A stretch of DNA of 64,000 nt from Haladaptatus sp. QDMS2 (lineage in GTDB: Archaea; Halobacteriota; Halobacteria; Halobacteriales; Halococcaceae). The position numbers and the translations under genes are program-made. The notes under the pieces were generated by a model that was not told the origin of the DNA, did not search any database, and saw only the letters and a list, made by a program, of their open reading frames with translations. This document shows positions 1,347 through 6,735 of this stretch, piece by piece. The DNA lies in the NCBI RefSeq assembly GCF_029338295.1, contig NZ_CP119791.1, forward strand, positions 2,170,001 to 2,234,000. The letters run 5' to 3'. Every line of letters begins with the position of its first letter. Within the stretch, counting starts at the first letter, position 1.

Positions 1347-1429
1347 CCGGGCGCTCGCGCGTGTCTGGTCGCCTCAGCGACCCCTATCGGCGAAGCCGAT
1401 ATGTCGCCTGAGCGACCGCGAGCGCCCGG
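1347..1429. repeat. Cloverleaf-like inverted repeat (13-bp stem enclosing three hairpins)
   Basis: The arms at 1347-1359 and 1417-1429 pair perfectly over 13 bp (CCGGGCGCTCGCG). Inside are three back-to-back hairpins: 1367-1382 (6-bp stem, loop CTCA), 1385-1401 (7-bp stem, loop GAA) and 1403-1416 (5-bp stem, loop CTGA). Nearly every base is paired, which makes a four-way junction in RNA or extruded single-stranded DNA. A short open frame crosses it, but the pairing explains the sequence better. It may be a mobile-element end, a MITE or a structured RNA. Confidence 0.7.
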
Positions 1430-1974: not shown

Positions 1975-2949
1975 TTACCGGTCCCCAAGCACCCGCGTAA
2001 CCCGCTCACGAAGCGCAACCAACAGCTGGTCGTAGTCGGTAAGCAGAAATGGCGCGTCGTTGTTTCGACTGTATTTCGAGGTGAGCCCCTCGTCGTGAAG
2101 GGAGGTGACGACTGCTTCGAGGTCATCCTCATTCGCTGCGTGCAACTGCTCCAGGAGTTCCCCTCGAGTGGTGAGGTCTCCGGTGGCGTAGCGTTTGATG
2201 AGGCGATACAGTTCGATTTCACCGAGCGTGTCCGTCTGCCTAGCACTCGTCGTCTGCAGATACTCGTTGAACTCCGGAGGCAACACGGTGAACGAGCCCT
2301 CCGAGTGGGTGACTGCCAGACCCATCTCCGACAATTGCTCGATGAAGGTTTCATAGTGGTGTTGTATCGTCTCGTCGCTGATGAGCGAATCATCCCGTGG
2401 CCATTTTAACTCGGCTCCCCGTGTTGAGAGGTGACCGGTATCGGTCTGTTCGAATCCGAACCGAACGAGTACGGCGAGGACAGGTGCACTGTACCCGTTG
2501 AACAGCTCGCGCAGGTCTGCATCGTGTTCGTCGAGAGTCCGTCGAACCTGTTCTGAACCGACTCGCGCCCCGACAGCCGTCGTCCGATACCCATACTCGT
2601 ATTTCCCCGTGTAGTGACGGGCTTCGATGAGCCCCAACCGCTCGAGGGCGTCGACCTCGTTGCCGTACTCCGGTTCGATATCTTCGTGGGGAACGCCAAT
2701 CGACCGTTCGTTCTCCTGGCCGATGTAAATACGCTGGAGGGCACGTATCACGCGAGTGACCGCCGCAGAATCGTAGCCATACACCTCCTCGAGTTTTCGC
2801 GTGAGCGCATCGACGTCTTTGATAGTCGTCGGAAACAGCCCCGCCCGTCTCGCCAACTCCTCGATGACGGCCTGGAACGTCTGGTCTTTTCGCCGGTAGT
2901 CGTCTAACACCCTGTAGAGTTCATCCGAGATGCGGACTGTTTTCGACAT
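1975..2949 (-). CDS. Ribbon-helix-helix regulator with long winged-helix-like C-terminus
   Basis: A protein of 324 residues. Residues 1-35 (SKTVRISDELYRVLDDYRRK) look like a ribbon-helix-helix/VapB-type DNA-binding domain. The rest is helical with two segments resembling winged helices: one near residues 90-130 (ALERLGLIEARHYTGKYEYG) and one near 265-315. Start taken as the ATG at 2949 rather than the GTG at 2952. A palindrome overlaps the start codon with a TATA box just beyond, so autoregulation is likely. Much longer than usual RHH antitoxins and with no toxin partner beside it. It may be an accessory-region or plasmid-type regulator; target unknown. Confidence 0.7.
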   Translation of the reverse strand: MSKTVRISDELYRVLDDYRRKDQTFQAVIEELARRAGLFPTTIKDVDALTRKLEEVYGYDSAAVTRVIRALQRIYIGQENERSIGVPHEDIEPEYGNEVDALERLGLIEARHYTGKYEYGYRTTAVGARVGSEQVRRTLDEHDADLRELFNGYSAPVLAVLVRFGFEQTDTGHLSTRGAELKWPRDDSLISDETIQHHYETFIEQLSEMGLAVTHSEGSFTVLPPEFNEYLQTTSARQTDTLGEIELYRLIKRYATGDLTTRGELLEQLHAANEDDLEAVVTSLHDEGLTSKYSRNNDAPFLLTDYDQLLVALRERVTRVLGDR

Positions 2950-2987
2950 CACTCAATCACTAGAGTGGTGATTCAGTGATTTATAGC
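2948..2987 (-). promoter_or_regulatory. Palindromic operator and TATA box of the RHH gene
   Basis: Arms at 2948-2960 (ATCACTCAATCAC) and 2968-2980 (GTGATTCAGTGAT) are inverted repeats with one mismatch, separated by 7 bp. On the reverse strand a TATAAA lies at about 2981-2987, 32-38 bp before the ATG at 2949. The palindrome therefore covers the likely transcription start of a leaderless mRNA, a classic repressor position. Confidence 0.65.
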
Positions 2988-4978: not shown

Positions 4979-6735
4979 CGAAACCACACGACTGCACCCG
5001 ATTGTGGAGTGTGAGAATCGCATATGAGGGATACCGTTCTCGGCCTGAGTGGTCTCCCCAGAGAAACTGCGTTTCATAATCGACGTGAAGACGTCCACCC
5101 GACGAAACAAGCGTCTCGGCAACGCTCAGTGTCTAGTTGTGGTCTCAGAATCGGATTCAATCCCCGGAAGAGCGTAACCAAGAACAGAGCAAGTGGGAAC
5201 TAGGTTGAATTACGTATGCGGGAACACAGGCGAGAGAGACAGTGGAAGCGTAGAGGATACCAAATCCGGGTGCGTGACGGGCGTGTGGAGATTCCATATC
5301 GAAAAATGCCGAGAAGTTCTTATTCTACGAAACCACCAGACGCAAACCGATTATGAACGTTTGAGCGGGGATTTCAGTGGGTTCGAAGCAGCATCTCGAT
5401 TCGACGAACCTCCAGAATACGCACCCCACGGGCGCTGAAACTCCAATAATGGCTCTGCAAAAATCCCAACCTAGTTCGAATCCAGTCGCGTTACTCTCCA
5501 CTCCTCCGGGCGCTAAGCCCGAGTATGACGTCACAAGCAAGCGCACACACAGTCCAATGCACCTGAAGCCCGTCACTCGACCCGTAAAGCCGAGAATGAA
5601 CACCCGAGACCAGGCCAGAGTAGTGGTGAAAATGCCCAGAAACGAGCTGTCCGAGCCAAGTAGAGCGACGACAGAGACACGTTCTGATTCAGATTCACTG
5701 TGAAACCACCAGACGTAAGCCGAGTATGAAAACTTGAGTGCGAAGGTCGTCGCTGCATCCGCAACCGTGGATAGTGACCTCGAACTGGCGAGGCCGAACT
5801 CAACCGCACGGCTGCTTCCGAGACAGTGCATCCAACTCCGAATGAACACCACAAATCGTTCCACACGCGGAATCCGGGCCTGAGAATGGCCGAACACAAA
5901 AACGAGGGTCGCTCAGCGAGTAACGTAGTTTCCACAATCGGCTTGAACCTCCGGAAGAAGGCGTGAGAACAGCATGTAGCGCTGCGTGTGAACGATAGAA
6001 GCCGAGGGCTGAAAGAGGAACAGTGAAAACGGAATTCAGAGGAGAGAGCCCACAGGAGTGGGTTTTTCGAGAGTTTCAGAATTCGTGTTGTCGCGTGAAA
6101 CAGGCCGTTCAATCTCGAATCAGACCGCCAAAATCCAAAACCGCACGACGGAAACCGATTGTGGAACTCATAGCGCCCATATTTCCCTCAAAACACCCGA
6201 ATCAGCCCGGGTTTCACACGCACATGCATACTCGAATTCCCGGGTTTCAACCCCCTCAAACCCACGGTTTGGCAATAATACTATCTCGGCGCACAGCACG
6301 TCACCTTCCTCCACACTCGCCTTGGAATCTACACAGGAACATCTCTTCCGGAGAATCAGCCCGATGGTGTAGGTTCCAGACAAAGATTACTTCGAAAACC
6401 GTGATGCGAACATAGAGGCTTCGAAACGCCCGAAGACACGGTTTCACTGACGTAGGGTTGATTCACTTTCAAAGCTACTGTCACGGGTAGGTTCGTCGAA
6501 TTCGGAAATCCAATATCTGCAGAATCCAGCCTGTAGAAGCCCAGAAAACCCGGAATAGGAATCCGAGCCGTGGGAGAACTATCCTATTGTGAATACTCGT
6601 CAGTAACAGTTGGTTCAGAGATACTTTTCGACCCAATCCGTCGATTCGCGCCAAAATTCGATGTAAAACGGGACTGAATCTGCACCCAAAAACCCTGAAG
6701 GGAAACCGATTGTGGAAATTAGAGTTGACGGTCGT
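4979..6735. repeat. Gene-free region with a degenerate dispersed repeat family
   Basis: From 4769 to 6816 I see no credible gene. Instead a diverged unit recurs. Three close copies begin near 4980, 5329 and 5702 (GAAACCAC, then GAC, then AARCCGAKTATGAA, then TTGAG). Looser copies lie near 5503, 5563, 5838, 6140 and 6700 (AAACCGATTGTGGAA in the last two). Reverse-orientation copies lie near 5070, 5146 and 5930; two of these share TCGGNTTNAA followed by CCGGAAG. Spacing is irregular (about 70-350 bp) and both strands are used, so this is not a CRISPR array or a coding repeat. It may be remnants of a small mobile repeat or clustered protein-binding sites. Confidence 0.55.

Follow-up and report, generated by a model that had tools for sequence, protein, structure and literature searches.

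A folded intergenic segment of Haladaptatus sp. QDMS2 as a probable member of a haloarchaeal family of mobile hairpin repeats

What kind of element is a short, almost fully self-complementary segment in a haloarchaeal chromosome, and why would its pairing be kept? The question is raised by positions 1347-1429 of the window, i.e., the 64,000-nucleotide stretch of Haladaptatus sp. QDMS2 that was analysed here (NZ_CP119791.1, 2,170,001 to 2,234,000; window coordinates count from its first base, and the features described are on the plus strand), where the first-pass annotation described a repeat in the form of a four-way junction, with a 13-bp stem enclosing three hairpins. The complementarity lies exactly where it was described, in the hairpin arms and in the 13-bp stem (5' arm 1347-1359, 3' arm 1417-1429; RNA and DNA folds and an alignment of 68 copies), and the DNA fold of 1347-1429 combines this outer stem with three hairpins (6, 7, and 5 bp), at -36.3 kcal/mol (z -6.96; none of 200 shuffles as good). 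The pairing within 1347-1429 is thus real; the element itself, however, is longer than that segment. Its core, a hairpin element of what we call subtype II (GGTGGGA...GGGGGCGTTC), spans 1332-1437 according to a covariance model, R1, that was built from 16 copies (match at 1330-1437, 104.9 bits, the window copy being among the 16 sequences used to build the model), and a repeat unit of about 1316-1440 recurs on the same chromosome at C1:1366497-1366621 (blastn, 92-93% over 1316-1440/1316-1434, with no homology beyond).

An RNA fold of 1337-1439 takes a different form, a single long rod of -66.7 kcal/mol (z -5.47; again 0 of 200 shuffles as good). From the outside inwards, this rod has an outermost 5-bp stem predicted by the RNA fold (1339-1343 pairing with 1433-1437), a GGG/GGG internal loop, the 13-bp stem, a one-sided bulge at 1360-1367 (from alignment A4 and its consensus structure), an inner stem identified from copy alignments, whose arms at 1368-1381 and 1403-1416 correspond to hairpins 1 and 3 of the four-way form, and an apical hairpin, TATCGGC-GAA-GCCGATA, at 1385-1401 that both RNA and DNA folds return. 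To decide between the two forms, the relevant comparison is among copies. In A4, a plain MAFFT alignment of 16 copies that leaves out L020 (a near-copy of L003) and a truncated copy from G001, the inner pairs specific to the rod are formed in 99.0% of 192 cells, with 5 of 12 changed on both sides, vs. 85.1% of 195 cells for the pairs specific to the three-hairpin form, with 2 of 13 changed on both sides; shuffling alone gives 83.7% for the latter, i.e., near the observed level. The alignments therefore favour one long rod hairpin over three hairpins, and we rejected the four-way junction as the conserved form.

The rod is conserved in its pairing while its sequence turns over. Among 68 copies of subtype II, to which one genome contributes 42, two-sided changes are seen in 22 of 35 pairs with 99.0% of the cells paired, and the covariation score is 0.316 vs. 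0.080 for shuffled alignments; within the 13-bp stem, both sides have changed in 9 of 13 pairs and 99.2% of the cells are paired. The outermost stem shows a two-sided A-U to C-G change at one pair in 6 of the 16 copies. A second subtype, I, has a different interior and both ends in common with subtype II; our set consists of the 72 of 79 pattern-picked copies that were retained by an interior filter (which skipped the other 7), and for this subtype 24 of 31 pairs have changed on both sides, 94.1% of the cells are paired, and the covariation score is 0.532 vs. 0.147, bearing in mind that picking copies by a pattern or a model favours those whose ends and pairing are intact and thereby makes conservation look higher than it is. 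The first-pass annotation had named the absence of both a second copy and a transcript, or changes that break the pairing, as grounds for giving up its reading; instead, copies exist and they covary.

How this covariation arose is less straightforward, because its details point in two directions. The first-pass annotation had proposed an extruded cruciform or a folded RNA, and the paired cells speak partly for each. Nearly all paired cells in both the subtype II alignment (A6) and the subtype I alignment (A8) are Watson-Crick, which fits DNA, and at one position of a single genome all four pair types occur without any mismatch (A-T 15, C-G 14, T-A 9, and G-C 4 of 42). Both observations are in line with a DNA-level process in which template switching at the quasi-palindrome corrects one arm to the other and thereby makes the double changes, the repeat having no function. 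Such arm correction, however, should erase the GGG/GGG loop and the bulge, yet both persist, and it does not account for the asymmetry between G.T and A.C cells: 27 vs. 8 (p 0.002) in A6, which was fitted to the covariance model and leans towards it, and 48 vs. 24 (p 0.006) in A8, a plain MAFFT alignment of 59 of the 72 subtype I copies (13, most from one metagenome bin, were omitted by hand). The 9:3 ratio in A4 is not significant. An excess of G.T over A.C implies that one strand matters, and we consider arm correction an unlikely overall explanation. Since the loops are kept and the strand bias exists, one strand appears to fold to some purpose.

These same features, i.e., two-sided changes with the internal loops (GGG/GGG and the one-sided bulge) kept and more G.T than A.C on the plus strand, would also be expected if the element were primarily a structured non-coding or cis-acting RNA whose plus-strand rod binds a protein, with mobility being secondary. 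Near-invariant unpaired bases in subtype I add to this case: C96 and A99 are found in 59/59 copies and a tandem G-A on both strands in 53/59 (A49, A50, and A53 were part of the copy filter). On the other hand, G.T cells are rare (27/2375 in A6 and 48/1758 in A8), which is unusual for an RNA that evolves via wobble pairs, and Rfam 15 gave no match above its gathering score for the window, three subtype II loci or eight subtype I loci.

The copies themselves reveal how the repeat is distributed. The genome of the window carries three subtype II copies in total, the further two being at C1:1366501 (93%) and C2:71256 (87%), and two subtype I copies; one congener has a copy truncated to its 5' part. 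The first-pass annotation was thus right to call the segment a repeat, with near and distant copies present in its own genome and in other haloarchaea. Homology between the window and the two other subtype II copies stops at the repeat (1316-1434 relative to the C1 copy, 1331-1437 relative to the C2 copy), with the exception of a separate 170-base match 1.6 kb away; that is, the repeat has been dispersed to unrelated sites. R1 matched 209 of 392 genomes of the order, in 64 of 95 genera, in a survey with strict filters and nine candidates scored per genome, in which weak R1 matches may include cross-hits to subtype I. When 150 candidates were scored in each of five genomes, the matches numbered 4, 103, 69, 18, and 13, the 103 being in a Halorussus genome (G084), and thus copy number is very uneven between genomes. 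The subtype I model, R2, matched 66 of the 392 genomes searched from the phylum, and every one of these falls within the same order. Searching a collection of species genomes for the two conserved ends together (GGGACTGAAAGGGGC ... GGGGCTTTC) returned at least 120 stretches, and all 80 listed of these carry haloarchaeal names. Among plasmids, 23 records matched, 22 from haloarchaeal genera, e.g., NZ_CP099994.1 of Halorussus salilacus, and one from Rhodococcus (a match from the search alone). Overall, the spread is class-wide. A phage or virus origin was considered and rejected: the exact 17-base pattern hit five viral stretches whose surroundings are unlike the element, the two-ended pattern had no hit in viral contigs, and blastn had none in phages. 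A CRISPR-repeat-like reading of GTGGGATTGAA was dropped; apart from the known copy, the motif has a single exact match in the genome of the window, in a context unlike the element.

Presence and absence at an orthologous site could be followed in Halorussus. Within conserved gene order, a subtype II element occupies a spacer of G084 (L285, about 6349-6600), and the orthologous spacer is short and element-free in six congeners (G055, G077, G136, G180, G141, and G121). Nine further spacers, from a total of 15 orthologous ones fetched, were too long or rearranged or contained other inserts and were not aligned as empty sites (two of them, from G070 and G131, have hairpin-end-like matches), and the other two elements of the L285 stretch are too poorly syntenic for this comparison. 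Because spacers diverge fast, the comparison leaves the exact insertion ends unfixed; nonetheless, this copy displays the insertion polymorphism expected of a miniature inverted-repeat element (MITE).

The window copy is less informative in this respect. It sits in a gene-poor stretch, with no called gene before 1975, and the nearest one (1975-2952, minus strand) matches Pfam families below the cut-off only, VAPB_antitox scoring best. Neither of the two congeners compared has a strong counterpart to positions 1 to about 3030 of the window, and hence the copy is probably located in an accessory stretch of the chromosome.

What may have moved these elements is best seen at the ends of a few subtype I copies. 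A terminal motif (CTGAACACTACC downstream, its reverse complement upstream), derived from subtype I copies of which many come from one metagenome bin, identifies IS6-like ends on both sides of 16 of the 79 pattern-picked copies at a fixed threshold, one that random windows reach on one side 141 of 1580 times. Among these 16, a target duplication is evident in L207, L225, and L213 (8/8 each) and L208 (7/8), vs. a mean of 0.62 and a maximum of 4 duplications of at least 6/8 in permutations. In addition, L153 shows 8/9 when nine bases are compared, and L352 is a 307-bp head-to-head pair with both terminal inverted repeats (TIRs) and an 8/8 duplication. The ends in question are the same as those of an autonomous IS6-family element (PF13610) in another haloarchaeal genome, G089 (L310; TIR GGCGGTGTTCAGATAA...TTATCTGAACACTACC, 8/8 duplication), the other IS6 copies of that genome having related or different ends. 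IS6-type mobilisation is therefore supported for some young-looking subtype I copies, which would have been moved in trans by IS6-family (DDE_Tnp_IS240) transposases recognising those ends.

This evidence is confined to those few copies. IS6-like ends of subtype II are at background (5 and 7 of 68, vs. 141/1580 random windows), the window copy has the end motif below threshold on both sides and no visible 8-bp target duplication, and such a duplication was not seen in most other copies either. A free search for TIRs with target duplications passed 1 of 60 model-picked sites, compared with 0-2 in 20 shuffles, and no IS6 match was found in the genome of the window or in G704, the bin of L153. 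Subtype II, and with it the window copy, may have taken the same route with its ends since decayed, or may depend on another enzyme. Further, the autonomous IS6 loci examined lack the hairpin, except for one weak match, and thus the mobiliser does not account for it.

Placement relative to genes is remarkably uniform. With a gene caller that reproduced most of the plasmid annotation, no copy overlapped a called gene among 72 subtype I copies, 42 copies of G084, 39 other subtype II copies and 60 model-picked sites, i.e., all 213 sites examined are intergenic. The gene on the 3' side lies in the sense orientation in 42 of 68 subtype I cases and 30 of 42 in G084 (42:26 and 30:12), a preference that does not extend to the third set, the other subtype II copies (16 of 34, or 16:18), and the median distance from subtype I to the start of the sense gene is 102 nt (quartiles 95-134). 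For an RNA with a function in cis this orientation and short distance would be favourable, although there is no conserved gene context and the copy number is so uneven. Where a haloarchaeal transcript is leaderless, an element that precedes the start codon by about 100 nt would be placed upstream of the promoter. Taken together with the conserved loops and the scarce wobble pairs, these observations make a structured RNA family with secondary mobility a conceivable, yet rather doubtful, account of the element.

Copies also occur in a specific arrangement, namely as head-to-head pairs: 24 of 72 subtype I copies have such a partner (23 with a spacer of 22-32 bp and one at 74 bp), as do 4 of 42 copies in G084 (spacing 175-240 bp), vs. 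1 and 2 of 121 in controls, and 16 of 60 model-picked sites are paired, all head-to-head, with gaps of 20-49. This arrangement bears on the suggestion of the first-pass annotation that the segment could be the end of a Y1-transposase-type element and, more generally, on an IS200/IS605 end or decayed core, a PATE or a TnpB guide-RNA scaffold. A hairpin acting on one strand is what such elements would share with the repeat, and the genome of the window is rich in them (30 TnpB matches). Nevertheless, the numbers do not follow each other, as G084 has 103 repeat matches vs. 2 Y1_Tnp and 6 TnpB matches, which led us to reject this origin; head-to-head pairs are also unexpected for it, and clear-ended copies possess TIRs and 8-bp target duplications, which IS605-type elements lack (PMC3119063). 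We regard any variant of this explanation as very improbable.

Several known systems resemble the repeat in part. IS6-family MITEs are likewise short, non-coding and multi-copy, and in a few subtype I copies the TIRs and 8-bp duplications agree with those of an autonomous IS6 element from another haloarchaeal genome; unlike such MITEs, most copies here, including all of subtype II, are without recognisable ends, the repeat has a conserved structured hairpin interior that is absent from the autonomous elements examined, and its spread is class-wide. ERIC, NEMIS/Correia, RUP, and BOX are intergenic imperfect palindromes of about 100-130 bp and differ in having bacterial hosts; BOX is modular with tandem subunits, a general layout that resembles the arrays found in Halorussus (below). 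REPs have RAYT transposases, whereas no Y1 gene tracks the repeat (2 or 3 Y1_Tnp vs. 4 to 103 repeat matches per genome). REP, BIME, and REPIN sequences are similar in being extragenic palindromes, single or in inverted pairs, that are amplified within genomes, but REPs are 20-40 bp long with a GTAG or CGTC tag (PMC3733652), and copies here are about 100-125 bp, with a unit of about 110 nt and the ends GGTGGGACTG/GGGGCTTTC, outside that size and without that tag.

The closest published elements are the SMR-A of Haloquadratum walsbyi, which are about 110 bp long, have prominent terminal inverted repeats, are multi-copy and haloarchaeal, and have no mobiliser assigned to them; in contrast to the present repeat, their preferred insertion sites are IS605/PATE palindromes, where no target duplication is produced (PMC3119063). 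This comparison with SMR-A (HqIRS42/43/55) is one of published features. The first-pass annotation knew of no named haloarchaeal element of such a form, and our search agrees: the repeat was not found in the literature on haloarchaeal intergenic, palindromic and small mobile repeats, PATEs, REPs, MITEs and structured RNAs, a search that covered few subscription papers, so that a description elsewhere is possible. Hundreds of intergenic small RNAs have been reported from a halite community (PMC7002113).

Hence, we favor the hypothesis, at a probability of roughly 0.65, that the window element belongs to a haloarchaeal family of hairpin repeats that are extragenic, mobile and non-autonomous, MITE- or REPIN-like, and that occur singly or in head-to-head pairs. 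Under this hypothesis, the hairpin may be kept since one strand folds, either as RNA in run-through transcripts or as DNA that becomes single-stranded when the element transposes or is replicated. Our preferred guess at a role is that the hairpin acts as RNA and would block read-through transcripts or process them, which could make insertion next to promoters tolerable. Haloarchaeal genomes carry the repeat, some by the dozen, and the records examined leave it unannotated. The family is a natural setting in which to test how cells tolerate a mobile, structured element in the intergenic space beside archaeal promoters. It might also serve to mark recent insertions, and it is a clean case in which to ask if repeat covariation reflects RNA, single-stranded DNA or correction of DNA arms.

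The repeat also takes part in larger assemblies. In G084, the core often has a 27-bp tandem array (unit with CGGTGACAC...CCACC) on one side and, on the other, a tandem array of about 53 bp whose unit repeats the 3' arm of the core; at L128:2105-2337, for instance, the 53-bp array repeats the hairpin 3' arm 4.4 times. Several 3' arms could then compete for one 5' arm. At other loci of this genome (e.g., L090, L097, L099, L107, and L112), a second conserved module, CGCAGTCGGTTGGGGAGG...TGCGGTTGCGGTGCTGT, precedes many copies and replaces the 27-bp array, and it is also found between head-to-head pairs. A more speculative reading, which we offer tentatively, is that the core acts across the haloarchaea as a functional module whose ends are fixed and whose interior comes in two interchangeable versions, that it rides on different carriers (IS6-type MITEs, the Halorussus tandem-array composites, and another carrier for subtype II) and that it is kept after the carrier ends decay for a putative role of its one-strand structure that benefits the host or the repeat, e.g., as a promoter-proximal RNA or single-stranded DNA insulator.

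Finally, two observations concern individual copies. On three Haloarcula plasmids (L025, L029, and L031), about 500 bp separate the repeat from the start of a gene annotated as 'SOSS complex subunit B family'; a role in plasmid replication, considered on account of this OB-fold gene, was dropped, as Haladaptatus and Halorussus copies adjoin other genes. A comparison of the genome of the window (L138, G000:C1:1364511-1368618) with a plasmid of Haladaptatus sp. DYSN1 (L018) showed 95-98% identity as far as the repeat on its left side, 88% within it and mostly 67-78% over the next kilobase rightward. A nucleotidyltransferase-like reading frame runs into the repeat, and the repeat at this site may mark a recombination or transfer junction.
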